Shown here: positions 1 to 56,982 of the stretch, in pieces
Numbering within the stretch: the stretch's first letter is position 1
How the letters are laid out: each line of letters begins with the position of its first letter
DNA from: a virus
Length of the DNA stretch: 56,982 nt
IMG/VR virus record: IMGVR_UViG_3300045118_000170
Span: 1-56,982 of that record
Direction: 5' to 3' (one strand)
Made by a program: the position numbers and the translations under genes
Notes under the pieces: generated by a model
Told to the model about the DNA's origin: nothing
Databases searched by the model: none
The model's input: the letters and a program-made list of their open reading frames with translations, nothing else

Positions 1-110
1 ACCCCGACTACATGCTCAAGGAAGCTGAGGACGACTTCCAGAAGTTCCCACCGCCGGGGTTTAAGCGGGACCCGAACGCGATGAACGCCGTAGTCCAGCG
101 GGGGCGATAG
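1..110 (+). CDS. Portal protein, 3' end (duplicate of the gene at 55223)
   Basis: This is the last 35 codons and the TAG stop of the portal gene, present twice because of the terminal overlap. In the closed circle it is one gene with 55223-56965. Confidence 0.9.
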   Translation, partial: PDYMLKEAEDDFQKFPPPGFKRDPNAMNAVVQRGR

Positions 111-127
111 AGGCCCTACTTTTTTTT
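1..127. repeat. Left copy of 127-bp terminal direct repeat
   Basis: Bases 1-127 are identical to 56856-56982. The repeat lies in the 3' end of the portal gene and its T-run, which is an unlikely place for a biological terminal repeat. A length of 127 equals a common maximum assembly k-mer. I infer a circular contig closed by an assembler overlap rather than a real packaged end. Confidence 0.9.
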
Positions 128-2356: not shown

Positions 2357-3316
2357 ATGCCAGTCCCAACAAGGACAGAGACCCTGAACACCTTCATTAC
2401 GGCCACCGGCCAAAACCGGCGTCCCGGTTTGGTGGACGCCTACTTTGGGTCCGCCCCCTTCCTGGCCCGTTTACGGGCAGGAGGAGACGAGACGGTTCGA
2501 CTCAGCGGCGGATCGGACATCCGCGAGAGTTTCGTGTATACGAACTTCCCTTCTTCATCCTTTGGACGAGGGGATACGTTCGATACCTCCGTGACGGAGT
2601 TCAGCACCACGTTGCGGTTCGATTGGAAGTACAGCTACGCCGCACTCAACCTCAATGTCATCGACATCGACTTGAACGATTCTCCTGAGCAAACCTTCGA
2701 TCTCGTCGAGGCCGCAATGGAGACCGCCGAACTGTCGTTGATCGACGATGCGTCCACCCAGTTGTTTGCGGACGGCAGCGGGAACGCCGGAAACGACATG
2801 GACGGGTTGGCGATTGCCGTCAGCCAGACCGGGACCTACGGCGGGATCGCTCGTGCGACAACCGTGAATAGCCCACAGCGGGCGATTCGGGCCGCCGTCG
2901 AGGATACGACCGGCGGAGCCCTTTCCCTCGGCGGCGTGAACTCCAACTTCGGGAGCGTCCAAGTCGGACGTGAAAAACCCGACTTGTTGGTGACGACGCA
3001 GACCCTTTGGAACCGGATTTGGGAGCGGTCGCAGGCCGCTGACCGCAACAAAGCTGAAAGCGACCGTGACATCGGATTTGAGAGCGTGCGGTTCAACGGC
3101 GCCGATGTGACCGTGGACTCGCACTGTCCCAGCGGCTTCCTGTATTACCTGAATACCAAGTGGTTCCGGTTCTACATCCACCGGAAGTGGGATTTCAGGA
3201 TGCGGGGACCGATGGAGCCGACCAACCAAATGCTCCAAATCGGGCAGTTGGTGGTGTGGGCGAACATGGTTTGCCGAGCCCCTCGGTTCCAAGGCGTCGC
3301 CAGCGGGTTGACGTAA
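2357..3316 (+). CDS. Major capsid protein (HK97-like fold expected)
   Basis: The 319-residue protein follows the scaffold gene and precedes decoration-type genes. The pattern of an N-terminal arm, a mixed alpha/beta P-domain with a central helix-rich Glu/Ala segment near 115-135, and late Trp/Arg-rich strands (FYIHRKWDFRMRG) fits tailed-phage capsid proteins of the N4/podovirus type. The assignment rests on size, order and composition. Confidence 0.85.
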   Translation: MPVPTRTETLNTFITATGQNRRPGLVDAYFGSAPFLARLRAGGDETVRLSGGSDIRESFVYTNFPSSSFGRGDTFDTSVTEFSTTLRFDWKYSYAALNLNVIDIDLNDSPEQTFDLVEAAMETAELSLIDDASTQLFADGSGNAGNDMDGLAIAVSQTGTYGGIARATTVNSPQRAIRAAVEDTTGGALSLGGVNSNFGSVQVGREKPDLLVTTQTLWNRIWERSQAADRNKAESDRDIGFESVRFNGADVTVDSHCPSGFLYYLNTKWFRFYIHRKWDFRMRGPMEPTNQMLQIGQLVVWANMVCRAPRFQGVASGLT

Positions 3317-3385: not shown

Positions 3386-3826
3386 ATGTTGACCCATCGT
3401 GAACGAGCCCTCAACACGGTACGCCACCTCAAGATCAGTGAACCCCAGGTGGCGGACCTTCGCAAGGAAAAGACGCTGTTTGTGACGGGAGCGCCGTCGA
3501 ACTGGCCTCCCGTCCTCGTCGCCCAGTACGCCCTGCGAACGGCCCTCGAAAACGGCTGTACCGTCATCGAAGTCCAGCAAGGTATCCATCGACGGGTCAC
3601 GTTCGACACGATGCGGTTGTTTACGGTTGCGCGACAGTGGAGGGGTGGGCGACTCCCCACCGTCAAGATGGCCCGTGTACCGCGCTACATCGGCACATGG
3701 AAGCAGGCGGCGGTTGGAAACGTGCTGGAAGCCCGTCCAACCCTGATCGCCATGCCGGGCCGAACCCTCAAACCGCCCGTTTCCGGTGATCCCGGCGGGC
3801 AAGGAGTGACACATGCCAGCGAATAG
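3386..3826 (+). CDS. Head-region protein of unknown function
   Basis: The 146 residues start at ATG 3386, preceded by GGAGTG. An N-terminal helix (about 1-35) is followed by an alpha/beta stretch with TGAPSNWPP and a C-terminal basic tail. The last 14 nt overlap the next gene. It lies between capsid and decoration-type proteins, so a head completion role is possible, but no family is recognised. Confidence 0.65.
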   Translation: MLTHRERALNTVRHLKISEPQVADLRKEKTLFVTGAPSNWPPVLVAQYALRTALENGCTVIEVQQGIHRRVTFDTMRLFTVARQWRGGRLPTVKMARVPRYIGTWKQAAVGNVLEARPTLIAMPGRTLKPPVSGDPGGQGVTHASE

Positions 3827-4604
3827 CACCACTCATCAGTTTCTCAATGTCGGCAACCTCGTGGGGATGGGCAATGCGGACATCCACGAGAACTCGGCGA
3901 CCCCGAACTTTCGAGGCGGGTCGTTGTCCTTCATCAGTGATGCGATGGGGCCGCGCATCCTCAAGTACGTGAAAAACGTGCGTGGAGCGAACTCCGCCGT
4001 CGCCGAGTTGTGCGAGTATGCGGCGGATGGCGCGAACGTGCTGACGACGACCGTCAGCAACATCACGGCGGGAAGCACGACCTCCGCCACCACCTCCGGC
4101 TTAACGGCGGGGCGGCATCAAGGGATGATCTGCTACGTCTTTGACAACGCCGATTCTGCGGGGGCTGCGCCGGAAGGCGAAGTGTCCGTCGTCGCCAACA
4201 ACACGGCGACGGTGATTACGATGGAGGCGGATTACCCCTACTCGGTCGCCTTGGCCGTCAACGACGACCTGGAGCTGATTGCGACCTACCAAACGGAGAC
4301 GACTGCCGCGAACGCGGAAGCGTGGACCTGCCCTGGTTTCGTGGCCGGAAAGGACGGCATCGACAACAACAACTTCGGTTGGCTCATCATGGAAGGTTTC
4401 GTCCTGGCGAAGGGGACGGCGGCCAACATCACCGAGGGCGACCCGGTTGAAGCGGCTGCGAACGGCAGCATTTCGACCGTCGCGCAAGGCCATGAAGAGT
4501 GGGTCGGCCTCGCACTGGCGGTGATGACGAACGATTCGGTGAGCCTGCGTGTCCCGATCTCCGCCAAACTGTTCACGTATGAAAACAGCGGTGGAACCCC
4601 ATAA
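3813..4604 (+). CDS. Capsid decoration/minor head protein
   Basis: The 263 residues are beta-rich with many Thr, Ser, Ala and Gly repeats. The composition and the C-terminal half, with alternating Gly/Asp turns and EGDPVE, resemble DUF2190-type or decoration proteins of tailed phages. It starts inside the previous gene and directly follows the capsid block. Capsid-surface stabilisation is inferred from context. Confidence 0.6.
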   Translation: MPANSTTHQFLNVGNLVGMGNADIHENSATPNFRGGSLSFISDAMGPRILKYVKNVRGANSAVAELCEYAADGANVLTTTVSNITAGSTTSATTSGLTAGRHQGMICYVFDNADSAGAAPEGEVSVVANNTATVITMEADYPYSVALAVNDDLELIATYQTETTAANAEAWTCPGFVAGKDGIDNNNFGWLIMEGFVLAKGTAANITEGDPVEAAANGSISTVAQGHEEWVGLALAVMTNDSVSLRVPISAKLFTYENSGGTP

Positions 4605-4635: not shown

Positions 4636-5145
4636 ATGGCACTGACCATCACACTCTCTGGAGATTGGCAAGGCAATGTCGGAGCCCAGCGCCATGTGCG
4701 GGGCACGATTGCCTTCGATTCCAGCTATCCGACGGGTGGCGAGTCGCTGACCGCCGCCAACATCGGCTTGCGGGTCGTGGACTTCATCGAAGTCACCGCA
4801 AGGTCCGGGTATGTGTTCGAGTACGACTACACGAACTCGTCACTGCTGGTGTATCGTACCGCGACCGTGACCCCGGCTGGGACTCTTTCAACGCCCAGCT
4901 TTGCGATTGCCTCGTCAGCGTCCGCCTCAGCCACGTATAAATTAACGGTGAGCGCGGATTCGACCGTCGCCGTCATCGCAGGAGATTCCTTGACAGCGGC
5001 TCGCACCCTTTCCGGCACCTATTCACCAGTCGGTGTGCCGACCTTTACAGGGAATGCAACGACCGCTGCCGCTCTTGCCGAGGTCGGGAACACGACCGAC
5101 CTCTCAGCACTCACCGGTGTCCGCTTCTGGGCGGTGGGTGTGTAG
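4636..5145 (+). CDS. Beta-rich structural protein
   Basis: The 169 residues are Thr/Ser/Ala-rich beta strands, preceded by a strong AAAGGAGG site. The composition matches small virion decoration or accessory head proteins. It is the last ordinary structural gene before the glycosyltransferase/radical SAM cassette, which makes it a plausible substrate of those enzymes. That link is speculation from neighbourhood. Confidence 0.6.
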   Translation: MALTITLSGDWQGNVGAQRHVRGTIAFDSSYPTGGESLTAANIGLRVVDFIEVTARSGYVFEYDYTNSSLLVYRTATVTPAGTLSTPSFAIASSASASATYKLTVSADSTVAVIAGDSLTAARTLSGTYSPVGVPTFTGNATTAAALAEVGNTTDLSALTGVRFWAVGV

Positions 5146-5153
5146 GGAGTATT

Positions 5154-5864
5154 GTGTCGGCTCCTTTGAAGAGGTTGGGCGGTCTTGTTGCAGTCGTTAG
5201 CGGCGAGACCGCCCGCTTCGCCCGTGCGGAGGATGCTCTGAATCGGATGAAACTCCCGCCCAGCTGGGAGATGCGCCGCTTCTATGGAACCAATGTGGCC
5301 TGTAATCTCAACAACGGGGTCCGGTATGCTCTGGCGACGGGCGCGGACTACCTCCTTGTCATCGGAGATGACCACGTATTTCCAGCCTCGCTGGTTTACC
5401 ACCTTCTCTCCCGCAACGTGGACATTGTAGCCCCTCTCGTGACATTTCGACGGCCTCCTTATGCCCCTATCGCGTTCCGTGACCGGAAAGAGGGGGCCTA
5501 TATGTGGGAGACGATCCCGTGGGACACGCTTCCCTCGGAGGGCCTGATGGAAGTTGCGGCTGTCACCAATTCTGGAATGCTCATGCGGCGCTCCGTCTTA
5601 GAAGCTCTCCAAGACCCGTGGTTTGATCTCGGCCAAGTGCATCCTGAGCATACCTCGGAGGACCTTCACTTTTGCGAAAAGGCACGAGCATGCGGCTTCC
5701 GGGTATATCTCGACGTAGATATGACGCTGGAGCATTTAACGCCGATCGGGGTCAAACCGACGCGGCGTGAGGACGGGCGGTGGGGCATGGATGCCGTCTT
5801 TGATGATGGGATTATTGTGGCACTCCCGCTCTCTCTCGAAGAACAAGAGTTGGTGCCTGCATGA
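5154..5864 (+). CDS. GT-A family glycosyltransferase
   Basis: The 236-residue protein starts at GTG 5154 behind GGGAG. An Asp-rich metal/nucleotide-sugar motif (IGDDHVFP, near residue 65) corresponds to DxD. A later acidic segment (SEDLHFCEKARACG) followed by FRVYLDVDM and a final His resembles the acceptor region of GT2-like enzymes. It is predicted to move a sugar from a nucleotide sugar to an unknown acceptor. It overlaps the following methyltransferase by 4 nt (ATGA), so the two are made together. Confidence 0.8.
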   Translation: MSAPLKRLGGLVAVVSGETARFARAEDALNRMKLPPSWEMRRFYGTNVACNLNNGVRYALATGADYLLVIGDDHVFPASLVYHLLSRNVDIVAPLVTFRRPPYAPIAFRDRKEGAYMWETIPWDTLPSEGLMEVAAVTNSGMLMRRSVLEALQDPWFDLGQVHPEHTSEDLHFCEKARACGFRVYLDVDMTLEHLTPIGVKPTRREDGRWGMDAVFDDGIIVALPLSLEEQELVPA

Positions 5865-6403
5865 AACTGAACATCGGCTGTGGCCGTGAACTGCTGGGAG
5901 ACTACCTCAACATCGACGTAGTGCCACCCGCCGACTACTGCTGCGATATCCGGTCCACCAACTTCAAGGGTATCGACGAAATTTGTATGATCCATTCGCT
6001 GGAGCACATCCCGTACCGCGACGTGCCTGTGCTGCTGACTCGGATGCGGAGGTGGCTGGTTCCAGACGGGGTCCTGCGTATTGAAGTCCCGGACATGCAG
6101 GAAATTTGCAAGGACCCGACGCACCCCAACTTCCTCGTCTACACCTACGGGATTCAAACCAGCGGCGGCGAAATTCACATGAGCGGATTCACGCTGAGTT
6201 CCCTGATGGCCCTCCTTATGGATGCGGGGTTTTACGTGGAAACCGGGCGAGTGTTCCGTTCTACTCATCACCAACGAATTGGGATGCCATGCTTGGAAGT
6301 GATCGCACACGCGCCTCGATCCTTGTTACAGGAGCCGGTGGAGCGGCTGGAGCTAACCTCATCCGAGCCCTTCGCCGCGCCGACCATCCTCTCCGTCTCG
6401 TAG
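5861..6403 (+). CDS. Class I SAM-dependent methyltransferase
   Basis: The 180 residues begin with LNIGCG (motif I, residues 3-8), followed by NIDV, HSLEHI and a DGVLRIEVPD strand. This is the order of small Methyltransf_11-like enzymes often found with glycosyltransferases. It would transfer methyl from S-adenosylmethionine, perhaps onto a sugar. It is coupled to the preceding glycosyltransferase by ATGA, and its last 115 nt overlap the ATP-grasp gene. Confidence 0.8.
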   Translation: MKLNIGCGRELLGDYLNIDVVPPADYCCDIRSTNFKGIDEICMIHSLEHIPYRDVPVLLTRMRRWLVPDGVLRIEVPDMQEICKDPTHPNFLVYTYGIQTSGGEIHMSGFTLSSLMALLMDAGFYVETGRVFRSTHHQRIGMPCLEVIAHAPRSLLQEPVERLELTSSEPFAAPTILSVS

Positions 6404-7401
6404 GCGTCGATTGTAACCGTTACCACCTCGCTGCCGCCGACTGCGACGAGCGCCACCTCCTGCCTCCGACCGAGGCGGACCCCATCGCCTGGATTGAGGC
6501 GCTCTTTCCGTTCGCCGCCGTCTGCGATCTCGTCCTCCCTCAACCGGATTGTGACGTGGCGGCGCTTTCGCGGGTGGCGCACCTCCCTGAATGGAGGCGA
6601 CTCCTGGCCCTTCCCTCCACCGGGGCGATTGCGACAGCCCAGGACAAGCTCGAAACGGCCCTCTCCTTAACAGCGGCCAACGTGCCGGTCCCCTTAACCT
6701 TCCCCTATCGCACCGCGACGGTTCAAGACCTCGGCAATACGCTCGGCTGGCCGGTGTGGGTGCGAGCGCGGCATGGGGCGGGGTCCAAGGGCGCGTTCAA
6801 GGCCTGGACCGCCAATCAAGTCCGCAGTTGGGTGGACGCATGCGCCTTGAATAAGGGCATCCCTGAACACGAGTTTACGCTCTCGACCTACCTGCCTGGC
6901 CCTGAATACGGCTGTCAACTCCTCTACTGGCATGGGCATTTTATCGTGTCCCAGACGAGGGAACGAGTTGAGTACCTCTACGGCTACCTGACGCCGACCG
7001 GCCAATCATCGAGCCCCGCTGTCGCACGAACGGTGGCGAACGCCGGTATCGACCACGTGGCTGATCAAGCGGTGCGAGCCCTCGACCACGAACCACATGG
7101 CGTGTACGGTGTCGATCTGAAATGCGACGTGAACGGCATCCCCCATGTGACGGAAGTCAATGCCGGTCGTTTCTATACGACCGTGGACTTTTTGGCGGCG
7201 GCGGGACTCAACCTGCCTACTATGCTGTGGAAGCTCCACAATGGAGAGTCTGTGCCGACCCTTAACCATTCCCCGCTGGCTGCGAACCAATACTGGATTC
7301 GGACGGCGGATTGTTTGCCGCGTCTCATTCGTGCCATGGACCTTGAAAAGGAGTTTGCCCCATGCCGAGCATCAGTACCATCGTTGAGTCCAACTCATTA
7401 A
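6289..7401 (+). CDS. ATP-grasp ligase, carboxylate-amine ligase type
   Basis: From ATG 6289 the product is 370 residues. It has an N-terminal pre-ATP-grasp Rossmann segment (VTGAGGAAGANL), a central ATP-binding region with KGAFKAW, and a metal-binding segment YGVDLKCD...VTEVNAGRF that matches the D...ExNxR signature. Such enzymes join a carboxylate to an amine or thiol using ATP. The frame is open from 6106, but 6289 gives a complete domain. It overlaps the methyltransferase by 115 nt and the next gene by 40 nt. Confidence 0.8.
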   Translation: MLGSDRTRASILVTGAGGAAGANLIRALRRADHPLRLVGVDCNRYHLAAADCDERHLLPPTEADPIAWIEALFPFAAVCDLVLPQPDCDVAALSRVAHLPEWRRLLALPSTGAIATAQDKLETALSLTAANVPVPLTFPYRTATVQDLGNTLGWPVWVRARHGAGSKGAFKAWTANQVRSWVDACALNKGIPEHEFTLSTYLPGPEYGCQLLYWHGHFIVSQTRERVEYLYGYLTPTGQSSSPAVARTVANAGIDHVADQAVRALDHEPHGVYGVDLKCDVNGIPHVTEVNAGRFYTTVDFLAAAGLNLPTMLWKLHNGESVPTLNHSPLAANQYWIRTADCLPRLIRAMDLEKEFAPCRASVPSLSPTH

Positions 7402-7703
7402 GTAATACGTCCACCTTACTGGTAGGACATCGGTGCGCACTCACGGGGGCGTGCGTCATCAATACGACAGGGGCCGACGCCTATATCCAACTATTCGATG
7501 TCGCTACCGCCGCCGCCGTGACAGTTGGTACGACGGTTCCGACCTGGGTGATCCAAAACGACTACGGGAAGGGGCTTGTGAACGAATCCTCGAACATCCC
7601 GGAGGGCGGCATCGACTTCGTGAATGGGATCGCGGCGGTCTCGACTACGACGCCGACCGGCAGCACGGCGGCGGTTCAACATTTGAAAGTCTCGATCTTT
7701 TAA
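7362..7703 (+). CDS. Small beta-rich virion-type protein within the enzyme cassette
   Basis: The 113 residues are rich in Thr, Val, Ile and Ala with no catalytic motif. The pattern resembles small virion surface or spike-base proteins. An AAAGGAG site precedes the ATG, and the start lies inside the ATP-grasp gene. Its placement between ATP-grasp and a second glycosyltransferase makes it a candidate target of the cassette. That role is inferred. Confidence 0.6.
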   Translation: MPSISTIVESNSLSNTSTLLVGHRCALTGACVINTTGADAYIQLFDVATAAAVTVGTTVPTWVIQNDYGKGLVNESSNIPEGGIDFVNGIAAVSTTTPTGSTAAVQHLKVSIF

Positions 7704-7745
7704 CCGTCCTTCTGGGTAGGGGGACACCACAAGGGAGGAGGAGGT

Positions 7746-8453
7746 ATGTATCAACGATCTATCAAAAAGACGATCTACACCTTGAACATTGGGAACTATG
7801 CGCCGTCGATTACGACCCTGACCTATCCACTGATGAAGGCGTATGCCCAAAAGATTCGTGCTGATTTCTACGTGATCACCGAGCGCAAGTTCCCAGACTG
7901 GCCGGTCGTGTACGAGAAGATGCAGGTTTACGATCTCGCCCAACAGCACGGCAACGAGTGGACCTACTACATCGACAGCGATTGCCTCATCCACCCCGAT
8001 ATGTTCGACATCACCCATCACATGGGGCGGGACCAAATCGCGCACAACGCCTTCGATGTCGCCAGTCATCGGTGGGTGTACGACCGCTTTTTCCATCGGG
8101 ACGGTCGCCACATCGGGAGCGGAAACTGGCTGGCGATTGCGTCCGACTGGTGCCTTGAACTGTGGAAGCCGTTGGACGATCTCACTCTGGAGGAAGCGGT
8201 CGCCCGTATCTATCCTACAATTCGTGAACGGAACAGCGGCGTAATCGAACCGGCTCATTTAATCGACGATTTCACCTTGTCGCGCAACATCGCCAAGTAT
8301 GGGTTGAAAGTGACCAATGTGCGCTCCATCATGAAAACAATGGGGTACGCCGACAACATCGGGTTCCTCTGGCACCGCTACGCGATCCCCGAAGAACAAA
8401 AGCTGACCGAAATGAACAAGGTGCTCAAGGAGTGGGGGATCACCATTCGGTAG
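7746..8453 (+). CDS. Second GT-A glycosyltransferase
   Basis: The 235-residue protein has a strong GGAGGAGG site. A DxD-type motif, YYIDSDCLIHPD (near residue 75), is followed by an acceptor-side stretch with GSGNWLAIASDW and a late conserved His/Trp segment (GFLWHRY). The layout fits GT34/GT77-like galactosyl or xylosyl transferases more than the GT2-like enzyme at 5154. Donor and acceptor are unknown. It is followed after 12 nt by the radical SAM gene. Confidence 0.75.
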   Translation: MYQRSIKKTIYTLNIGNYAPSITTLTYPLMKAYAQKIRADFYVITERKFPDWPVVYEKMQVYDLAQQHGNEWTYYIDSDCLIHPDMFDITHHMGRDQIAHNAFDVASHRWVYDRFFHRDGRHIGSGNWLAIASDWCLELWKPLDDLTLEEAVARIYPTIRERNSGVIEPAHLIDDFTLSRNIAKYGLKVTNVRSIMKTMGYADNIGFLWHRYAIPEEQKLTEMNKVLKEWGITIR

Positions 8454-8465
8454 GGGGGACTACTT

Positions 8466-9431
8466 ATGCGCCCATTGACTCAAAAAGACGGTGTGCAAAT
8501 CGAGATCACCAATTACTGCATCCACGCCTGTAGCAACTGTACGCGGTTTTGCGGGAGCCACCAACAACACTACTACATGGATTTTGCCTACTTTCAAAAG
8601 GCCGTCGAATCCTTGGAAGGCTACCCACGCATCATTGGGGTAATGGGCGGTGAGCCGCTTCTGCACCCCGAATTTGAGCGGTTTTGCGACTATCTGCTCA
8701 CGAAATTCCCGCGTGAACAATTGGGGTTGTGGTCCACGCTACCGAAGGGTTATGAACAACACCGGGATGTTATTTGTCGTACCTTCGGCAATATTCTCTT
8801 GAATGACCACACCTTGCCGGAGGTCATGCACGCACCGCTCCTGGTCGGCATCGACGAGATCGTGACGGACAAGGCGGCGATGTGGCAGCTCATCGACCAA
8901 TGCTGGGTCCAAAACGCCTGGAGCGCCTCCATTAACCCGAAAGGGGCCTTCTTCTGCGAGGTCGCCGCCGCCCGTGCCATGCTGTTCAACGGAGCGGACG
9001 GGTGGCCGCTTGAAAAGGGTTGGTGGAAGCGGATTCCGGCGTTCTACAAGGAACAGATGGAGGAGCATTGTCCAGGGTGCGGAGGCGCCCTCCTCCTTCC
9101 TTCGCGTACAAGCATGGACGAACGAGACGATGTTTCGCCCAAAAACCTGGAGCGGTTGAAGGGGGTATCAAGGAAAGTGGATCGTGGCGAGTTTGTATTG
9201 TTCGATGTGACCAAGCCGATCCCGGCGGAACCCTCTCACTATCCACCGCAAGAGTACAAGCATGGCCCCTACCGGCAGGATGTTGCTGCCCGTTACGGGA
9301 TTTTCTTGACTGTCAATGCACGCGGGTTCTGGGACCCAAATCTCCGCCACAACTGGAAGGTGGGAGATGCTCCCCTTGAACATCGTGTCACGTTTGACCG
9401 CGTACCGGTCCAATCAGGGTATATGACGTAA
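8466..9431 (+). CDS. Radical SAM enzyme
   Basis: The 321 residues carry the radical SAM cluster motif CxxxCxxC (C18, C22, C25) and GGEP near residue 60, which bind the 4Fe-4S cluster and S-adenosylmethionine. Further cysteines occur near residue 160 (AFFCEVA) and as CPGCGG near 200, so an auxiliary cluster is possible. A GGGGG-type ribosome site precedes ATG 8466. The substrate is unknown; the context suggests modification of a glycan or a virion protein. Confidence 0.85.
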   Translation: MRPLTQKDGVQIEITNYCIHACSNCTRFCGSHQQHYYMDFAYFQKAVESLEGYPRIIGVMGGEPLLHPEFERFCDYLLTKFPREQLGLWSTLPKGYEQHRDVICRTFGNILLNDHTLPEVMHAPLLVGIDEIVTDKAAMWQLIDQCWVQNAWSASINPKGAFFCEVAAARAMLFNGADGWPLEKGWWKRIPAFYKEQMEEHCPGCGGALLLPSRTSMDERDDVSPKNLERLKGVSRKVDRGEFVLFDVTKPIPAEPSHYPPQEYKHGPYRQDVAARYGIFLTVNARGFWDPNLRHNWKVGDAPLEHRVTFDRVPVQSGYMT

Positions 9432-9434
9432 CCC

Positions 9435-10388
9435 ATGCCCGCCAACTTAGCCGACCTCACGACTCGCGTGCAACAGCTTATCGGCAACGATACCTTGTTG
9501 TCGGCGGCGGAGGTGTATAATCTCGCCCAAACCCGCTACGAGCACCTCTACGAGACGTTTCACTTTTCCCGTCGCCACCGCGACTTTACGATCTCGTTGT
9601 TCGCGCAGGTCTCCTCCAACAACTCAACCCTCGTGACGGTCACGAACGGGAACAGCACCGTGACAAGTGCGGGGTCTCCGTTTACGACCAGCGTGGCGAC
9701 AACGGCCCGCCAAATCCAAATCGGGAGTGAGGAGCAATACTTCTTCGTTAACTCGCGGACAAACGATAGCGCCATTGTCCTTGGCGACGGCGAAGCGACC
9801 GCCGTGAATTGGGCCGGGGCGAACGCCTCCAACCAGTCGTGGCGGCTGTTCCAGACGATTTACACGCTTCCGACGACCGCAGGCCCCGTGATCTCGTTAG
9901 CGTGGGATACCCCGATTGAGGAGCTGGATGGGGGGCGCGCCGCACTCGACGAAATTGACCCGGATCGCTCCTCCACCGATGCGACCCCGAAGTTTTGGTG
10001 TTACGCGGGCGTCAACTCCACTAGCGTCCGCGAGATTGAGGTGTGGCCGGTGCCAACCACCGCGAAGGTCCTTCGTGGGCAATTCCTACGCGAAGCGCCG
10101 ACGCTCGCCGCCAACACCACCATCGACATCCCTTATCCTCCCCTGGTGTACTACACCGCCGCTGACGGCTGCCATCTGCTGCACGCCAAGCAAGGGAGTA
10201 CGGAGTCGATGTGGGAAAACAAGGCGTTGTTTTTTGAGCGTAAAGGCCGTGAAGTCATGGCCGACTACATGCCGATTGAAGATGACTTGACCTCACCCGC
10301 TCGGTCGCTTCGACGGGCGTCCTCGAATCCGCTTCGGAGCCTCCGGGGGACGGACTACGAAACCAGTCACGACCTGGACCTCTTGTAA
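9435..10388 (+). CDS. Head-tail adaptor/connector protein
   Basis: The 317-residue protein has an N-terminal helical hairpin (LADLTTRVQQLIGND), a beta-rich Ser/Thr/Asn middle, and a C-terminal helical segment containing KALFFERKGREV and a disordered tail. This layout is typical of podovirus connector or gp4-like adaptors. It sits upstream of the holin-like and tail genes. The role is inferred from architecture and order. Confidence 0.65.
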   Translation: MPANLADLTTRVQQLIGNDTLLSAAEVYNLAQTRYEHLYETFHFSRRHRDFTISLFAQVSSNNSTLVTVTNGNSTVTSAGSPFTTSVATTARQIQIGSEEQYFFVNSRTNDSAIVLGDGEATAVNWAGANASNQSWRLFQTIYTLPTTAGPVISLAWDTPIEELDGGRAALDEIDPDRSSTDATPKFWCYAGVNSTSVREIEVWPVPTTAKVLRGQFLREAPTLAANTTIDIPYPPLVYYTAADGCHLLHAKQGSTESMWENKALFFERKGREVMADYMPIEDDLTSPARSLRRASSNPLRSLRGTDYETSHDLDLL

Positions 10389-10396
10389 GGGATGCC

Positions 10397-10657
10397 ATGA
10401 CCCATACACCGACACCAACCTTTGATCGAAACAATGGGATGCCGCTCTGGGTCAAATTCGTGTACTGGGTCGGGTTCCCGATTATTGTGGCGTTCTTTTT
10501 CATGTCCAAGGAGATGGGGTGGTTTGTGGACGACGCGACCGCCTATCAACAGCGCCTTGTCTTGGAGCATCGAGATGACACGAAGGAGATGGTCCGCCTC
10601 CTTCGTATTATTTGCGGTCATTCTGGAGGCACGACAACCCAGTGTGGACCTCAGTAG
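10397..10657 (+). CDS. Small single-span membrane protein
   Basis: The 86 residues contain one hydrophobic span at about 18-38 (WVKFVYWVGFPIIVAFFFM) followed by a charged helical domain and two late Cys. An AAGGG site precedes ATG. It is next to a smaller membrane protein and a lipoprotein, so it may belong to a lysis or membrane-interaction group inside the tail module. Confidence 0.6.
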   Translation: MTHTPTPTFDRNNGMPLWVKFVYWVGFPIIVAFFFMSKEMGWFVDDATAYQQRLVLEHRDDTKEMVRLLRIICGHSGGTTTQCGPQ

Positions 10658-10671
10658 AAGGAGGATAACCC

Positions 10672-10839
10672 ATGAAATGGACACGACTTTGGCCGACGGT
10701 CGCCAGTATCTTGACGGTATTGGTGGGGGCCTTTGAAGCCCCAATTCAAGAGGCGGTAAAAAGCCACCCGACCGAATCAATGGCGGTAGCGGGCGTCTTA
10801 ATCGTGGTAGCAAACATCCTGAAGTCTCCGCGTGAATAG
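10672..10839 (+). CDS. Holin-like small membrane protein
   Basis: The 55-residue ORF has a strong GAAGGAGG site before ATG 10672. Two hydrophobic stretches (about 8-22 and 35-50) are separated by a short polar loop containing EAPIQEAV, and the C-terminus is basic. Size and topology fit small phage holins. No lysozyme gene is adjacent; the endolysin is at 51490. Confidence 0.55.
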   Translation: MKWTRLWPTVASILTVLVGAFEAPIQEAVKSHPTESMAVAGVLIVVANILKSPRE

Positions 10840-10841
10840 CG

Positions 10842-11162
10842 ATGAAACTGCGCCGTTGGTGGGTGCTCGGCTTGATGCTCCTGGCCCTTGGTTGTGGGCA
10901 TCGTCCGTCTTTGCCTTCCCCAGACCAGGAAGCACCCCTTCCCGAATTGACGGTACGGCTTTTGTCCTTTCAAGTGTGTCAAGGACACGAAGTTGGATAT
11001 TGGGCCGTCTATTCCGCACAAGTGCGGGAGATTCACTATTACATGTTGTTTCTCGTCTCGAAAGATAACCTGGCGAGTGAAGAGGACCTAATTTGCCGGG
11101 TTGAATGGAACCAGCGGATTGCGGCATTTGATCCATCCTTAGTCTTTCGTTTTACTTTTTAG
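10842..11162 (+). CDS. Predicted lipoprotein
   Basis: The 106 residues start with a basic n-region, a hydrophobic core and a lipobox-like LALGC (Cys about residue 18). The mature part is short, with two further Cys and an aromatic C-terminus. Possible roles are an outer spanin-like protein or a superinfection-exclusion lipoprotein. It follows the holin-like gene after 2 nt. Confidence 0.6.
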   Translation: MKLRRWWVLGLMLLALGCGHRPSLPSPDQEAPLPELTVRLLSFQVCQGHEVGYWAVYSAQVREIHYYMLFLVSKDNLASEEDLICRVEWNQRIAAFDPSLVFRFTF

Positions 11163-11173
11163 CGAGGTCGTCT

Positions 11174-12223
11174 GTGGCCCTTCCAAATTCCGTCAATGCA
11201 GCAACCCCGGCTGGAAGCGACAGCCCCGCCACCATTGACAACCAAATCCGCGACTTCAAGACGTTCGTGGAGGATATTTTCGGCATCCCCGATGCGACAA
11301 ATATCTCCGCCAATGTGATGACCGTTGTAGCTGGGGGTCTTGATAGCATTAACTTCGCCAACTCCGGGGCGAACGCGGGGGTGGCAGGGGAACTGCAACG
11401 AAACGCCGCAAATTTGACGTTCCACGATGGAACTGCCTCCCGGACCATCATCAACAGCAATATTACGACAACGATCACTTCGGTTGGGACGATTACAACC
11501 GGCACCTGGAATGGGACGGCTATCGGCGCGGCGTATGGCGGAACCGGCATCAATTCATCGGGGTCCACCGGCATCCCGTCCGTAGCGGCTGGTACTTGGT
11601 CCATCGGGTCAGGGTTCGCGCTCGCCTCCATTCAAACCTTCACCGCAAACGGGACGTGGACAAAGCCCTCCAACATCTTACGGGTATTTATCACGGTGGT
11701 TGGTGGAGGTGGCGGAGGAGGCTCCTCGTCAGGGTCAGGAAACGGGTCAGGGGGAGGCGGCGGTGGAGGTGGCACGAGCTTCAAACTCGTTGATGTGTCC
11801 GCTATCGCAACGGTGACTGTTACCATTGGTACCGCTGGAGCGGGTGGAGCAGGAGGCGGCGGTGGGGGCGGAGGCACCACCTCGTTCGGGACGCATGTTT
11901 CGGCTACAGGAGGTAGTGGCGGTACGCAGGGAGGTGGAGGGACGGCAGGGGACGGAGGAGCCGCTGGATGGGGGTTCTCCGGCGACTTCAACATTGAAGG
12001 GGCAGATGGGTCTGTCGGAACAAGTGACGCGGCTGGAGGGCAAGGAGGGCACGGAGGAAGTTCGTACTTTGGAGGGGGCGGGAAGGGCGCATCTGTCGCT
12101 GCGCAAGCCGGGGTCGCTGGCAATGCGTATGGTGGAGGCGGAGGCGGTGCGGGGGGAGCCGGAGCGGCTGCGAACGGCGGGGCTGGAGCCGCCGGTTTTG
12201 TTCTCGTAATGGAGTACCGTTAA
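11174..12223 (+). CDS. Tail fibre/adhesin with glycine-rich tip
   Basis: The 349-residue protein starts at GTG 11174 behind GAGG. Residues 1-50 form a virion-attachment-type helix. About 60-150 is a repetitive beta-solenoid-like region. The motif FTANGTWTKPSN leads into VVGGGGGGG and then about 170 residues of poly-Gly/Ser/Ala. This matches glycine-rich phage tail-tip domains thought to form polyglycine-II bundles. It is the likely receptor-binding protein, and its stop overlaps the next start (TAATG). Confidence 0.7.
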   Translation: MALPNSVNAATPAGSDSPATIDNQIRDFKTFVEDIFGIPDATNISANVMTVVAGGLDSINFANSGANAGVAGELQRNAANLTFHDGTASRTIINSNITTTITSVGTITTGTWNGTAIGAAYGGTGINSSGSTGIPSVAAGTWSIGSGFALASIQTFTANGTWTKPSNILRVFITVVGGGGGGGSSSGSGNGSGGGGGGGGTSFKLVDVSAIATVTVTIGTAGAGGAGGGGGGGGTTSFGTHVSATGGSGGTQGGGGTAGDGGAAGWGFSGDFNIEGADGSVGTSDAAGGQGGHGGSSYFGGGGKGASVAAQAGVAGNAYGGGGGGAGGAGAAANGGAGAAGFVLVMEYR

Positions 12224-22000: not shown

Positions 22001-22102
22001 CTACTTCCTCGAAAGGGGCCGTTCCACCCACCAGCCGACGAGACGAGCGACTCCCAGGACTACGATAAACCCGATGAGATCAACAAAGGGTGCGTGCCTC
22101 AT
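22001..22102 (-). CDS. 33-residue membrane microprotein
   Basis: Read leftward from ATG at 22102, the ORF has one hydrophobic span (residues 6-25, VDLIGFIVVLGVARLVGWW) and a basic end. Its SD, GGGGAGG with 6-nt spacing, lies inside the TIGEAL codons of the upstream gene, and the two genes overlap by 23 nt. It is the last gene of the early operon. Function unknown. Confidence 0.45.
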   Translation of the reverse strand: MRHAPFVDLIGFIVVLGVARLVGWWVERPLSRK

Positions 22103-22322
22103 TGAGCGCCTCCCCAATGGTGCAATGCCGTATAGTACAGTCACGGGTTGAAAAGCACCGCTCTACCCACGCCTTCTTAATCTGCTGACGAACTCGCAAC
22201 CATGAACAGGAGCAACTTGGAGGGGCGCATGGCTCGATGGATAACACCTCTCCCTTGAATAAAGGAGTGCCTGCCCCCTCAATGGCTACAAGGTCCCCGA
22301 CCTCAAAAGGCCTGTTCGACAT
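22080..22322 (-). CDS. VG/VGEL-family small protein 1
   Basis: The 80 residues begin MSNRPFEVGDLVAI and end with CTIGEAL plus a short tail. These are the N- and C-terminal motifs shared by about 20 small proteins of this region. Between them is a beta-strand-rich core with six Cys. The codons for TIGEAL contain a perfect SD for the next ORF. It overlaps the upstream paralogue. Function unknown; a small beta-barrel (SH3/KOW-like) is the simplest guess. Confidence 0.65.
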   Translation of the reverse strand: MSNRPFEVGDLVAIEGAGTPLFKGEVLSIEPCAPPSCSCSWLRVRQQIKKAWVERCFSTRDCTIRHCTIGEALNEARTLC

Positions 22323-22563
22323 CCCCTATCCCTCCTTCCTGGAGAAAAGCGCCCACCGTAAGCCGTTCGAGGTCCCGATGCTCTGCTGTTGAGACGCGAC
22401 TGTGGCGTGTTCCGTCTTTTTCCAGGATTACGAGATGGTGACACCCACATGACGCCAGTGGACAAGCGATACTTTCAATAATCATTCCCTGAATACGCCC
22501 ATGCGAGGGGATTGTAACCGAAACGTGCTCCCCCACTTCAAAAGGCCGTGTTTGTCCCGCCAT
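22303..22563 (-). CDS. VG/VGEL-family small protein 2
   Basis: From ATG at 22563 the product is 86 residues with RPFEVGEHVSV at the start and RLTVGAFLQE near the end. An in-frame ATG at 22578 is an alternative. The start region overlaps the TSCPD gene, whose GGAGGGAGGGAGG codons could supply an SD. An AAGGAGG inside its own 3' end serves the next gene. It is clearly paralogous to 22080-22322. Confidence 0.6.
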   Translation of the reverse strand: MAGQTRPFEVGEHVSVTIPSHGRIQGMIIESIACPLASCGCHHLVILEKDGTRHSRVSTAEHRDLERLTVGAFLQEGGIGDVEQAF

Positions 22564-23179
22564 CTTTGCTGGAGGCATGGCGAATCGCCAGGTCCTCCCT
22601 CCCTCCACCACATTCAATGAGGAGATGCTTCCCTACAAGGTCCACCAAGCTGGAGCAAAAACGAATCGACTCATGCCCCTGCACGGCCCCGGCAGGCTCA
22701 AACTTGGTATTCAATAGCAAGTCCCCCACCTTGGAGATGGGGGCTCCATATTGCAGTGACAAGGACACCAACCGCGCAATGACATCATACAACCCCACTA
22801 CCTCCGCCGTACAGTCCTTCCCTTTCACGCGAATAAACAACTCTTTGAGGGGGCGAGCCATGTCCGTTGTCAAGTAGACGGTCCTCCCCCCGGCCTTCAT
22901 TTTCCAGGTAATACAGCCTCGTCGGGCTGGCAGGGCTTGTCGATTCACGGGTACACGACCTCCTTGTACCCAACTGGGAGCAACCGGGCGGGGCCACATT
23001 GAGATAGGACGTTGAGGGACAGGGAGGACATCGGCCTTCACCCCCTTTTTCGCTAAGCGTACTCGCTCATTATGCATGAGCAGATGCCGCATACACCGCA
23101 CCCGCCCAGGCACCGCAGGCCCCATACAATCATGGCACAGAACGGTGGCGTGTTGGGTGTAGTCAATGGCCCGCAGCAA
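22538..23179 (-). CDS. Stand-alone TSCPD-domain protein
   Basis: From a TTG at about 23179 (or CTG 23176) the product is about 213 residues. An N-terminal Cys/His zinc-binding-like patch (LCHDCM...RCMRH) precedes a TSCPD-like domain: RTVYLTT strand, KELFIRVKGKD, VARLVSLSLQYGAPISKVGDLL and a terminal LVDLVGKHL helix. TSCPD normally ends class II ribonucleotide reductase, but no reductase gene is present here. No ATG fits the start. The role may be regulation of host nucleotide reduction or DNA metabolism. Confidence 0.6.
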   Translation of the reverse strand: MLRAIDYTQHATVLCHDCMGPAVPGRVRCMRHLLMHNERVRLAKKGVKADVLPVPQRPISMWPRPVAPSWVQGGRVPVNRQALPARRGCITWKMKAGGRTVYLTTDMARPLKELFIRVKGKDCTAEVVGLYDVIARLVSLSLQYGAPISKVGDLLLNTKFEPAGAVQGHESIRFCSSLVDLVGKHLLIECGGGREDLAIRHASSKDGGTNTAF

Positions 23180-25239: not shown

Positions 25240-25581
25240 CTATCTCTCCTTTCGCAGCCACTCGTGAATCGTGCGTTCGATGCGAGACAACCCACCCGGC
25301 ACATAGCGAAGTGGGATTTGCCCATTCGCCCGTTCCCGTATTGTCTTTGAAAGCCCATGTCGGCAAAATTTAGAGATCAGTACCACATCGAAATCGAGGT
25401 CTCCCCGAAACGAGGTAATGGCGTGATCGCTTTTTTGTCCGGTAAACGTCAAGTCAACGGGATGGTCTTTGAGCCACCGCGTCAAGTCCCGCGTTTGCGC
25501 CTCCATCAACCCGGCAACGAGGACCCGTAAAGGTCTTGTACGACCCGCTCGAACTCCTGGCGGCTGGGAAGCCGTTTCCAT
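25240..25581 (-). CDS. DUF2325-like protein nested into the polymerase 3' end
   Basis: The 113 residues have a Rossmann-like VLVAGLMEAQ start (about 20), a FDVVLISKFCRH middle and a VPGGLSRIERTI end, matching the pattern of DUF2325. Its ATG (25581) lies inside the polymerase gene with a strong AAGGAGG site 6 nt upstream that is also polymerase coding sequence. The genes overlap by 76 nt. Function unknown; the host family is linked to stress and division contexts. Confidence 0.6.
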   Translation of the reverse strand: METASQPPGVRAGRTRPLRVLVAGLMEAQTRDLTRWLKDHPVDLTFTGQKSDHAITSFRGDLDFDVVLISKFCRHGLSKTIRERANGQIPLRYVPGGLSRIERTIHEWLRKER

Positions 25582-28103
25582 TCATGTCCTCCTTTCCACC
25601 GCAAACCGACTTTCATGGTACAAGGAATCGACAAATCGAAGCCGTAATACGACCTCGGTTGTTCCAACGACGTAACGAGGAAGTGAATGACATCATACGC
25701 TGTATCGGGGCGTAAAGACAAGAGCAACGAATCGTGGCCCTGGAGGTTAATGCGCCCCTCTTTCCACCCGCCACTGGCAAGGCGGGACCAAACCGGCACG
25801 AACCCCTGATGGTTCATCCAGAGCGCCACGTTGGATTGCGGGTCGAATGAGTACCCTCGCCGATAGGTGTCCTCGTTAAAGCGGTCGTAGGCAAACGAGA
25901 GGCGGTAGCCCCACACATTTTCAAGATACTTGTCCTGGATCATGCGAGCGCGGACCCACCGGAAAAAGTCGTGGCGTTCCGGGAGTCGCGCCCCGTAGGT
26001 ATCCAGCAGCCGTTGACATTCCTCCTTCGTTTTCACAAACCCGTCCTTGAGCACCTCATCCGCCATTTTTTGACCGTGCAGGTCCCGCCAACTTCCATGC
26101 ACGGTTTTCTTGCCGAAGTAGCGGAGTTTGGCCCACTCGTCCGGCGACACATCACGCTCTGTCACCCCGAAGATGAGGGTGGTGTTTTCACTATGTTGGT
26201 CGTACTCGTCAGGCCGAAGTCGGGCCTTTTCAAGCAAGTCTCTGTTCCCGGATACCATCGAGGCGAGGAGGTAATCTAGTCGTGCTTCGGCCTGTGCGCC
26301 GTCTACCTCCGCACTTAGGCACCCCTCATCCGCCAGAAACATATCCCGCGCTTCCCGGTCGATATTTTGCGCGTTGGACCCTGTCCCTTGAGGATTGGCG
26401 CTAGAGGATAACCGAGCCGCTTCTGTGTTCATCGAATAGGAGGAGCGTAAACGCCCATCCGGGTCCACCCGCTTCTCCTGGTAAAACGTCGAAAGTTGGA
26501 GGAGCCGCCGATGGGTCAGGATCAGCGTGCCGACCCGTTGAGGGAACCGATCTGGAAAGCGCGTCATCAGCTTGCGAACGGCCACCTCGTTGGCGCTCTC
26601 CGTGCGGTGCCCGGTGGTGCGCTTCGCCAGTTGAACCGGGAGTTGCAGGGTCGTGTAGAAGTAGGTCGTCAGCCGTTTTGTCGATAACCCCTTCTTCCCG
26701 TACAACTCAACACCCGCCTCCTGAGTCAAGTCTTGGCGTGTTTGGGCCATTGCCGCCTGTAACTCAGCCAAGCGGGTTTGTCGTCTCCCTTCATCGACAC
26801 GGAGACCCCACCGAGCCAGGTCATGGAGTGGAGCAAACAGCGGTATGTACAGGGCTTGATAGATGTCCCACCCGGTTTTCCCGTTGGCGCGGTGAGACCC
26901 CTCTAACCGTTGACGGTACACTGACGCCAGTTCCCGTGTCACGGCCGCGTCCTTCCCGTTGTAGGTGAGAAAGGCGCTCCAATTCGAGGTGTACTTCGAG
27001 GCCGTATCCGGGTCCTTGGCGGTATCTTTCCAATACGGTTCACGAGTGTCCACGCTTGCACAGAACGCGAGGGAGTGGGGGGCGGATGGGTCCAAACAGT
27101 GGTGCATCAGGAGCGTGTCGTATCTCCAATTCGTCAGCCCAATCCTTCGGTCGCTCAAGTACCATAAGTCGTAGTGTCCGTTGTGGAGGGCCTTCGCCGC
27201 CTCACACTCACAGAGCCGTTGAATCCACGTCCACGCCGCCGCGAGACGCGCCTCCTCTTTCCAGTAATCGAGGGTGGTCGGGACCGTCAACGAAAACAGG
27301 GGATCGCGGCTAAACCCCACACAGAGGATGTCGGGGTCCCCTTTCACGGTCTGATGCTTGATCCGCCCCTTCAACTTCCCGGTTTTGTAGCGGAGGGGAG
27401 CCCCATCCTCCCCCCGAAGCGGGATGCGCTCCTCCTTTCGGGGGTTCTCGATATCGAGGGCCAGGATCGGGTCGTAACAAGCGAGCGTCTCGTGATAGAA
27501 CGCTTCGAGGTCGGGCAAGGTCGGTGTAATAAAATGCTCACGCACAGGCAACCGGAGGTCGGGATGCTGCGCTTCGTCTCGAATCCGCTCAAAGTCGGCA
27601 AGGGCCTGCCGCTCTAAGGAGGGTTGACGGAAGGTGGCTGCTGGATGGATCGTCGGAATTACCTTGACCACCTGCCCATCCTGCATGGTGTACGGAAGGA
27701 TCGACCCTCGCCAGGCGATAATGCCGGGGCGACTCTCCTTCCCATCCCGACTATGCCAATGGACATTGCCCTTCCCGGTAAGGGCGTAGAGCGCATAGTT
27801 CCCTAGTGGGACGAGCACGACCGGCGAACACGCTTGAAGGCGTCGATGGAGGTCCTCGATCCACGGCATCAGCGATTCCTTACTGACTAAGGCCAGCTTG
27901 TCGTTCGGGACGCGGTATTGCACGAGATTATCAAAGTAGCACTCCTGTCGAGTGAGGCCGGCCCACTTGAGCCACATCGTCAAGACACGCCCTGCCGCGC
28001 CCACAAACGGCTCCCCCTTCTCGACTTCCTCACTGGCGGGGGCTTCGCCGATGAACACAATACGGGCGTGTGGGTTGCCCCAACCTAGGACTCGACGGTG
28101 CAT
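25506..28103 (-). CDS. UDG-DNA polymerase A fusion
   Basis: From ATG 28103 the product is 865 residues. Residues 1-190 are a family-4-like uracil-DNA glycosylase (GEAPAS...GEPFVGAAG, then IPTIHPA). Next is a 3'-5' exonuclease with all three motifs (LDIE, NGHYD, YNGKD). The remainder is a family A polymerase with motif A VDGAQAEAR and motif C GHDSLLLSL. In motif B the usual Phe (E. coli 762) is His. SPO1-like polymerases also carry a UDG-like domain. Coupled to the upstream small gene by an embedded SD. Confidence 0.9.
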   Translation of the reverse strand: MHRRVLGWGNPHARIVFIGEAPASEEVEKGEPFVGAAGRVLTMWLKWAGLTRQECYFDNLVQYRVPNDKLALVSKESLMPWIEDLHRRLQACSPVVLVPLGNYALYALTGKGNVHWHSRDGKESRPGIIAWRGSILPYTMQDGQVVKVIPTIHPAATFRQPSLERQALADFERIRDEAQHPDLRLPVREHFITPTLPDLEAFYHETLACYDPILALDIENPRKEERIPLRGEDGAPLRYKTGKLKGRIKHQTVKGDPDILCVGFSRDPLFSLTVPTTLDYWKEEARLAAAWTWIQRLCECEAAKALHNGHYDLWYLSDRRIGLTNWRYDTLLMHHCLDPSAPHSLAFCASVDTREPYWKDTAKDPDTASKYTSNWSAFLTYNGKDAAVTRELASVYRQRLEGSHRANGKTGWDIYQALYIPLFAPLHDLARWGLRVDEGRRQTRLAELQAAMAQTRQDLTQEAGVELYGKKGLSTKRLTTYFYTTLQLPVQLAKRTTGHRTESANEVAVRKLMTRFPDRFPQRVGTLILTHRRLLQLSTFYQEKRVDPDGRLRSSYSMNTEAARLSSSANPQGTGSNAQNIDREARDMFLADEGCLSAEVDGAQAEARLDYLLASMVSGNRDLLEKARLRPDEYDQHSENTTLIFGVTERDVSPDEWAKLRYFGKKTVHGSWRDLHGQKMADEVLKDGFVKTKEECQRLLDTYGARLPERHDFFRWVRARMIQDKYLENVWGYRLSFAYDRFNEDTYRRGYSFDPQSNVALWMNHQGFVPVWSRLASGGWKEGRINLQGHDSLLLSLRPDTAYDVIHFLVTSLEQPRSYYGFDLSIPCTMKVGLRWKGGHEWKRLPSRQEFERVVQDLYGSSLPG

Positions 28104-28360
28104 GCTGCAAGCGCCTCTCCAACGGTTGCTGGTCTGATTTCTTCGGGTGTCCACCCAAAGAGACGAGCCTCTCCCACTCCAATCGGGTGGCAGTAGTAGA
28201 GGAGCGTAATCGAAAAACTCTGTACGGTGTCGATCGTAAAAATCTCAAAGACGGAGCCTGGTCTCGCTCCTCCAGAAGTGTGATAAGTGGACAGCCATTG
28301 GAGATGCCTCTTCCCCTCCTCCGTCAAGACAACCAACATCCCGGCTTCCAACGGCGGCAT
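28085..28360 (-). CDS. VG/VGEL-family small protein 6
   Basis: The 91 residues start with PPLEAGMLVVLTEEG, a variant of the N-terminal motif, and end with RPATVGEAL plus eight residues. The middle is beta-rich with aromatic residues. The TVGEAL codons contain GGAGAGG, which lies 10 nt before the polymerase ATG, so polymerase translation is probably coupled to this gene. Confidence 0.65.
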   Translation of the reverse strand: MPPLEAGMLVVLTEEGKRHLQWLSTYHTSGGARPGSVFEIFTIDTVQSFSITLLYYCHPIGVGEARLFGWTPEEIRPATVGEALAACTVES

Positions 28361-28367
28361 AGACCCG

Positions 28368-28661
28368 TTACTCCTTCACGCTGGATTGGAGTACGTCACC
28401 AACTGTGGCTCGGTCTACTTCGTTTTCACGCAAACGGAGGAGTCCAGCCCCAGCAGGATAGGGACGAGCCGCATAGTAGCGGACCCCTGCTGAAATCATA
28501 GACCCCTCGATCTTGAGCAAACCGCTCGCACCGAACTCCCACCCTTCTCGTAAGACCCAAGCGGCGCGTAAATTAACCCGTTGTAAGTACCCTCTCCCTT
28601 TTGCATTCAACTTGACTAATGTTCCGTTTTCGTAAGGTGGAGAATGCTCTTCTTTCGTCAC
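28368..28661 (-). CDS. VG/VGEL-family small protein 7
   Basis: The 97 residues start at GTG 28661 (GTGA overlap) with NGTLVKLNAKG near residue 12 and end DRATVGDVLQ. Here the motif codons are not SD-like; the next gene's SD (AAGGAG) lies two codons later. Conservation of TVGDVL despite this favours a protein-level role for the motif. Confidence 0.65.
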   Translation of the reverse strand: MTKEEHSPPYENGTLVKLNAKGRGYLQRVNLRAAWVLREGWEFGASGLLKIEGSMISAGVRYYAARPYPAGAGLLRLRENEVDRATVGDVLQSSVKE

Positions 28662-28948
28662 AACGCGCCCTCCTGTATGTGCAACACCTCTCCGACCGTC
28701 GCCGGTTCAATCTCACCTGCCAGGAAATGGAGAGTGTTGTCGTCTCCATCGGCCTTGACGCGATCTTCGACAGGCTTGCAGGCATAACAGGGTAAACGAG
28801 GAGCACCCTGGACCGATACTACATGGAACAAAGGAGGGTTCTTCGTCTTTGCGAAGGACGGGCTAGACAGAGAGCGGCATATCTCGAAATACGTCCACCC
28901 CCGTTTCGTCACTCGAACGATTGTCCCGGCTTCGATGAAAGGAGACAC
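28658..28948 (-). CDS. VG/VGEL-family small protein 8
   Basis: The 96 residues start at GTG 28948 behind GGAG with 6-nt spacing; a TTG at 28960 is an alternative. The N-terminus FIEAGTIVRVTKRG and C-terminus IEPATVGEVL match the family. A CAGGAGG near the 3' end serves the next GTG start. The middle has a CYAC pair. Confidence 0.6.
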   Translation of the reverse strand: MSPFIEAGTIVRVTKRGWTYFEICRSLSSPSFAKTKNPPLFHVVSVQGAPRLPCYACKPVEDRVKADGDDNTLHFLAGEIEPATVGEVLHIQEGAL

Positions 28949-28975
28949 AGTTCGCTCCAACTTCGTTGAGCAATC

Positions 28976-31485: not shown

Positions 31486-31722
31486 TTAGGGGTCGAGGGC
31501 GAGCCACTCGGCAACCGACAACTTTCGACACTGGCCGTCATGGACAGTCATAAGCCCGAACTGGTTAGTCAATACAGATATCTCCCACTCGTCATCGCAC
31601 GTCGAACATTCCTGTATTCTTGTAATGAGCCCAAGGGAAAGCTTTTCACCCACTGTGACCTCTATAATATCTCCTTCCTCCAACAAAAGAGGAACACGCT
31701 GTTGGTGGCTCATGTGAATCAT
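31486..31722 (-). CDS. VG/VGEL-like small protein 10
   Basis: From ATG 31722, with GGGAGG 5 nt upstream, the product is 78 residues. LLEEGDIIEVTVGEKLSLG resembles the family N-terminus and CRKLSVAEWLAL the C-terminus. The core has a CSTC pair. It lies between the larger family member at 31746 and the Sak4 gene. Confidence 0.55.
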   Translation of the reverse strand: MIHMSHQQRVPLLLEEGDIIEVTVGEKLSLGLITRIQECSTCDDEWEISVLTNQFGLMTVHDGQCRKLSVAEWLALDP

Positions 31723-31745
31723 ACTCGCCTCCCCCAACCGTGAGT

Positions 31746-33685: not shown

Positions 33686-33686
33686 G

Positions 33687-34053: not shown

Positions 34054-34063
34054 CGTCCACCTC

Positions 34064-38342: not shown

Positions 38343-38360
38343 CCTACGACCTTCCTTGTC

Positions 38361-56965: not shown

Positions 56966-56982
56966 AGGCCCTACTTTTTTTT
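56856..56982. repeat. Right copy of 127-bp terminal direct repeat
   Basis: It is identical to bases 1-127. It closes the circle inside the portal 3' end and its T-run. Confidence 0.9.

Follow-up and report, generated by a model that had tools for sequence, protein, structure and literature searches.

The glycosylation of phage virions has been shown in few systems, and little is known of the chemistry by which the glycans are built. Che8-type mycobacteriophages carry glycans on the capsid and the tail tube (Freeman et al. 2023, as cited in PMC12619734 and PMC11256854). Chlorovirus capsids are glycosylated as well; the A64R protein of PBCV-1, deposited in the PDB as a glycosyltransferase that acts on the major capsid, has a methyltransferase domain in addition (PMC4691112). 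Here we describe a block of five enzyme genes and one small gene (5154-9431) in the virus record IMGVR_UViG_3300045118_000170 of IMG/VR, which was analysed over its whole length of 56,982 bases (the window). The block lies between a 169-residue protein gene and an SU10-like adaptor gene, and encodes two glycosyltransferases (GT_A and GT_B), a methyltransferase, an ATP-grasp protein and a radical S-adenosylmethionine (SAM) enzyme (rSAM). We propose, with a probability of roughly 60%, that two cargo modules in the late virion block together glycosylate a virion protein, the acceptor being predicted, and tailor the glycan. This reading is the best supported because glycosyltransferases sit among the head genes in several unrelated lineages, because GT_B has a glycosyltransferase fold, and because the closest cellular rSAM relatives lie in flagellin islands.

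Like the Che8-type phages, the window encodes its own glycosyltransferases, and the targets, which are known to be virion proteins in the Che8-type phages, are inferred to be so here. The F1 phage Maravista, a relative of Che8, has its glycosyltransferase genes close to the genome's 3' end (PMC11256854), whereas those of the window lie between the capsid and adaptor genes. They are accompanied by a twitch radical SAM enzyme and an ATP-grasp protein, a statement that concerns the window block only and implies no contrast with Che8. A64R resembles the locus in two respects: its GT-A fold is the best match of the GT_B model (PDB 2p73/2p72/2p6w, E 2e-7), and a methyltransferase accompanies the glycosyltransferase, fused in A64R and as a separate gene in the window. 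The likeness is one of fold, with about 12% sequence identity and a TM-score of 0.53-0.59; A64R belongs to a eukaryotic virus, and no radical SAM enzyme is reported in PMC4691112. Our literature search found no paper describing a set of glycosyltransferase, radical SAM and ATP-grasp genes among phage head genes. Thus, while virion glycosylation is already known, the capsid-adjacent rSAM/glycosyltransferase pair, its kin in flagellin islands and the swap of lectin for enzyme genes were not found described in the literature searched, and the unusual parts are the radical SAM partner and the link between phages and flagellin. The block and its flanks comprise the following genes:

2357-3316, + strand: major capsid protein (MCP), Mx8-like, a PHROG major head protein (PHROG 9953, E 6e-48), with nine related viral loci
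3813-4604, + strand: probable cement/decoration protein (weak Phage_cement_2 match, E 0.003, below cut-off), kept in all relatives
4636-5145, + strand: core protein of 169 residues, rich in serine and threonine (26%), left edge of insert 1
5154-5864, + strand: GT_A, predicted GT2-like glycosyltransferase, insert 1
5861-6403, + strand: predicted class I SAM-dependent methyltransferase, insert 1
6289-7401, + strand: predicted ATP-grasp ligase, CPS/PRK12767-like superfamily, insert 1
7362-7703, + strand: core phage protein of 113 residues, rich in serine and threonine (24%), between the two inserts
7746-8453, + strand: GT_B, GT-A-fold glycosyltransferase by its model, insert 2
8466-9431, + strand: predicted twitch-type radical SAM enzyme (rSAM), insert 2
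9435-10388, + strand: SU10-like head-tail adaptor (PF24175, E 1e-6, above cut-off), right edge of insert 2, kept in relatives
11174-12223, + strand: glycine-rich tail-fibre-like protein (PHROG 863 tail, E 9e-43), possible alternative acceptor

The original prediction had placed five enzyme genes here in one direction, and all six open reading frames (ORFs) do lie on the + strand inside 5154-9431. The overlapping ends that it described hold for the first half of the block, with overlaps of 4, 115 and 40 nt in order; the second half has gaps of 42, 12 and 3 nt.

GT_B has no Pfam match, and its identity therefore depends on the modelled fold. For the model (pLDDT 90.4), 48 matches in the PDB reached E<=0.001; almost all were GT-A glycosyltransferases or related nucleotidyltransferases, the next after A64R being UGGT, GT34, COLGALT1 and GT6 enzymes. 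D77 and D79 of the DxD metal-binding motif are invariant in 17 sequences. On this structural model, GT_B is a GT-A-fold glycosyltransferase.

The rSAM protein has a Pfam match below the cut-off (3e-4) with a CX3CX2C motif, whose cysteines C18, C22 and C25 are invariant in 13 sequences, as are the auxiliary cysteines C146-X13-G160-X3-C164 ... C202-X2-C205. The auxiliary motif of twitch/SPASM enzymes is CX9-15GX4C ... CX2C (PMC6231123), and that of the window enzyme fits the twitch pattern, with one auxiliary cluster, except for one residue (GX3C vs GX4C). The assignment is at superfamily level, and the four invariant auxiliary cysteines point to the twitch type. The top fold matches of the structure model are BtrN, AbmM and SpeY; since this model is weak (pLDDT 48), they do no more than hint that a sugar or aminocyclitol is oxidised, and an assignment of the reaction from the model was dropped. 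All three enzymes share with the window rSAM the CX3CX2C motif and four auxiliary cysteines, but full-length sequence similarity is undetectable, and the window motif reads CX13GX3C, not CX9-15GX4C.

The GT_B-rSAM pairing is also seen in three further contigs (L013, L033 and L034). In L013 and L034 the pair lies between the MCP and adaptor genes (GT_B 41-44%, rSAM 48-50% identity), and the capsid family of both is PHROG 283, which BLAST does not connect to the window MCP. The order is MCP-GT_B-rSAM in L013, and MCP-592-residue protein-GT_B-sugar epimerase-rSAM in L034. Three Manatee Spring phages (MW202711, MW202496 and MW202462) and Microcystis phage Mel-JY34 have a GT_A relative immediately behind the MCP gene, with at most one small gene in between. 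These placements imply that a glycosyltransferase occurs in the MCP-adaptor interval of no fewer than three head lineages that BLAST does not link. No annotated glycosyltransferase follows the MCP gene in Mx8, BUCT555 or a TM7 phage, which are remote members of the MCP family. Other GT_B relatives adjoin glycine-rich fibre genes (L022 and L024, with L019 likewise by reading); in L022 and L024 the next gene downstream encodes a protein that shares its domain with the glycine-rich protein of the window. By reading, the island that holds the L012 GT_B relative also contains RCC1-repeat and oxygenase genes. The recurrence of a capsid-adjacent glycosyltransferase/rSAM pair in unrelated phages offers a testable marker for phages with sugar-coated particles.

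Two of these loci carry features that merit separate mention. In MW202462 (L062), the GT_A relative at 5926-6543 is unannotated and lies in a gap between the post-MCP gene and the next coding sequence. The L012 island (MH319737, 2216-15931), from an unannotated marine single-cell virus, is a dense run that by reading includes apparent 2-oxoglutarate-Fe oxygenases, glycosyltransferases and sulfotransferase-like, RCC1-repeat and nucleotide-sugar genes.

Close cellular members of the rSAM family are few: two came from the genome scan, and 10 of the 141 genomes of the Trichlorobacter order, those two included, have one at E<=1e-40. The two closest relatives (47-50% identity) lie in the flagellin glycosylation islands of Trichlorobacter thiogenes and a Desulfuromonadaceae metagenome-assembled genome, where the rSAM gene is two genes upstream of flagellin (fliC), followed by FlbT, and is accompanied by GT41-type tetratricopeptide repeat (TPR) proteins and methyltransferases. 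The islands thus share with the window block the same rSAM family, neighbouring glycosyltransferases and methyltransferases, and a nearby structural-protein gene, flagellin in the bacteria and capsid-type in the window. They differ in using GT41/GT4 TPR proteins, and searches of the two island genomes and of the 141 genomes found no GT_B relative. Several distant cellular rSAM relatives stand beside TPR-glycosyltransferases or sugar-activating genes, and others merely beside a glycosyltransferase gene or without a clear one. That our searches otherwise found the family mainly in bacterial sugar-attachment clusters, two of them flagellar, suggests that phages and bacteria may share a surface-sugar toolkit. 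A broader proposal, which we hold only tentatively and with more doubt than belief, is that tailed phages and bacteria have in common a mobile protein-glycan toolkit formed around the twitch rSAM, that its target is flagellin in the bacteria and, in combination with GT_B, the head in the phages, and that in the lineage of the window it has replaced lectin-like virion proteins. If so, the particle would display a radically modified sugar instead of a glycan-binding domain. The rSAM is a candidate enzyme for the radical tailoring of protein-bound sugars.

In insert 1, GT_A has a Glyco_tranf_2_3 match in Pfam just under the cut-off (E 1e-5) and a PHROG glycosyltransferase match (2e-6), and the methyltransferase matches Methyltransf_23 above the Pfam cut-off (E 9e-7). 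The third protein matches an NCBIfam CPS-like ATP-grasp model (3e-18), but its score of 65.8 bits lies below the equivalog cut-off of 218, and it is placed in the ATP-grasp superfamily on sequence. Its start is best placed at ATG 6289, not at the program's TTG 6106, which gives the 115-nt overlap with the methyltransferase gene; an equivalent overlap is present in a related contig (L002). The closest cellular ATP-grasp relative found belongs to a glycan gene cluster that also encodes an epimerase, an aminotransferase, a methyltransferase and glycosyltransferases. Sequence searches of viral contigs found homologues of GT_A and of the ATP-grasp protein in L002 only, the phage collection held no match to the rSAM, ATP-grasp or methyltransferase proteins, and PDB sequence searches with the cassette profiles returned superfamily-level or chance matches only.

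L002 has the identical six-gene order, and its enzymes are 64-83% identical in amino-acid sequence to those of the window. The ratio of nonsynonymous to synonymous substitution rates (dN/dS) between the two is 0.08-0.24 for GT_A, the methyltransferase, the ATP-grasp protein and GT_B; for the rSAM, dS is saturated and third-position changes dominate. The enzymes appear to be under purifying selection, and the conservation of their order is more than chance. The loci L003-L010 (MCP 60-69% identity) keep the decoration and 169-residue genes, as does L002 for the latter, and L003, L009 and L010 also keep the 113-residue gene; none of the five enzymes occurs in the L003-L010 sequence examined. Since relatives carry the 113-residue gene, which the original prediction had counted in its six-gene block, without any enzyme, it stands outside the enzyme set. 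L003 and L010 have nothing gene-sized between the 169- and 113-residue genes, and GT_A, the methyltransferase and the ATP-grasp gene can therefore be taken as one insertion. Between the 113-residue gene and the adaptor, the relatives have beta-rich ORFs where the window has GT_B-rSAM, among them LamG/concanavalin-like lectin-domain proteins in L009 (16169-17044) and L003 (14432-15178). A single six-gene unit was rejected, the 113-residue gene being core and GT_B-rSAM travelling without insert 1. Judged by this comparison of loci, the block is a composite of two adjoining cargo modules at a variable locus, and the capsid-adaptor interval may be a site where glycan-binding virion proteins and glycan-making enzymes are swapped. 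Homologous loci without the enzymes, and parts that move separately, had been named beforehand as grounds against a functional cassette; both occur, and we read them as modular cargo, not as a lack of function. The claim that so dense an enzyme set is unusual agrees with our searches, in which it looks rare, one other contig (L002) having the full set. As a side observation, the capsid match of L010 (10001-11217) is split, with residues 1-27 at 10001-10081 and 29-319 at 10345-11217; the roughly 260 bases between the halves may be an intron or an insertion.

We envisage that the enzymes are made late, together with the virion proteins, and that a virion protein is glycosylated in the cytoplasm. 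GT_B and GT_A would use host nucleotide sugars to build a short glycan on serine or threonine of one or more abundant virion proteins, candidates being the serine/threonine-rich proteins of the decoration, 169-residue and 113-residue type or the glycine-rich fibre. The twitch rSAM would oxidise or rearrange a sugar, the ATP-grasp enzyme would couple a carboxylate or amino acid to the sugar, and the methyltransferase would cap the glycan. Several points weigh against this scheme. Only two contigs are known to hold all five enzymes, so co-occurrence does not show that the five cooperate. The candidate acceptors occur in relatives without enzymes, and this weakens the earlier proposal that the 113- and 169-residue proteins are candidate substrates, as both are found where all five enzymes are lacking. 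The usual DxD of GT_A reads GDD, with glycine for the first aspartate, in both the window phage and L002, and the rSAM model is poor. The two flagellin-island rSAMs are 82% identical to each other and thus count as one arrangement.

The enzymes might instead act late in infection on the O-antigen or capsule of the host and so alter its surface polysaccharide, for example to prevent superinfection or to keep progeny from re-adsorbing to debris. Glycosyltransferases near the tail-fibre genes of pelagimyophages, some of which also have radical SAM genes there, were read as host-surface modifiers (PMC7029224), and O-antigen synthesis is a possible role of the clusters that hold some of the distant rSAM and ATP-grasp relatives. 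We nonetheless regard this explanation as unlikely: the block is embedded in head genes, its capsid-adjacent placement recurs across lineages, and the closest rSAM relatives lie in flagellin islands. Nor does the block encode a flippase, a GtrA/GtrB-like protein or any other membrane protein, and the lack of transmembrane segments in every cassette protein argues against O-antigen conversion of the Gtr type.

The original prediction had left open whether a sugar is built and attached or a virion protein is modified as in the maturation of ribosomally synthesised and post-translationally modified peptides (RiPPs); glycan building and attachment on the virion fared best, and the RiPP-type alternative found no support. 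Twitch/SPASM enzymes do include RiPP maturases such as SkfB (PMC6231123), and ATP-grasp ligases can act on peptides, so that the rSAM and ATP-grasp enzymes could act directly on a virion polypeptide while the glycosyltransferases serve a separate function. This is quite improbable, given that the rSAM has no N-terminal leader-binding RiPP recognition element (RRE), its barrel beginning within the first ~10 residues, and that the block has no RRE match and no precursor-like gene. The sole small ORF, that of 113 residues, is present without the enzymes in L003, L009 and L010, and the rSAM is paired with a glycosyltransferase, plus a sugar epimerase in L034. That the cassette makes a small molecule or a nucleotide sugar in modified form, for host metabolism or for release at lysis, is a slim prospect; small-molecule enzymes (BtrN and D-Ala ligase) do occur in the rSAM and ATP-grasp families, but two transferases and the repeated capsid-adaptor placement would be left unexplained. 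Phage glycosyltransferases can also act on hydroxymethylated bases, which counts for a hypermodification of phage DNA. We consider this very improbable, as a Pfam and PHROG scan of the 63 other ORFs found no hydroxymethyl-pyrimidine synthase, TET/JBP or similar and only one N6/N4 DNA methylase, the genes lie in the virion block, and their relatives are tied to protein or surface glycosylation.

The setting of the block is that of a tailed phage. An exact direct repeat of 127 bases stands at both ends of the window (1-127 and 56856-56982), the record being classed as linear, and the window is thus probably a complete genome of ~57 kb. Scaffold, capsid, decoration, adaptor and tail-type genes occupy the + strand between 0.2 and 22 kb, and terminase and portal lie at 52.8-57.0 kb. 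Promoter and terminator scans gave nothing above chance, so a single late transcript is inferred only, and an Rfam scan of the window had no match. Two sites stand at or beside the terminal repeat, ahead of the virion genes: one is terminator-like (101-117), and the other is the best sigma-70-like promoter (139-167).

Further features lie on the - strand. An 882-residue ORF (25506-28154) fuses a uracil-DNA glycosylase superfamily domain to a family A DNA polymerase (Pfam UDG 3e-23, DNA_pol_A 1e-16). Many small ORFs of ~75-115 residues, alike by eye, are found at 22080-22617, 28658-28960, 31486-31827, 33431-34345, 36423-36958 and 38076-38342; they share a start followed by '...LLVxHxxxPGxVFEV...' or 'VGDFVR...GVV' and a '...VGE' ending, and may be an expanded paralogue family. 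At 36973-39470, in the early region, an AAA ATPase gene adjoins a DUF2201 metallopeptidase/VWA-like gene.

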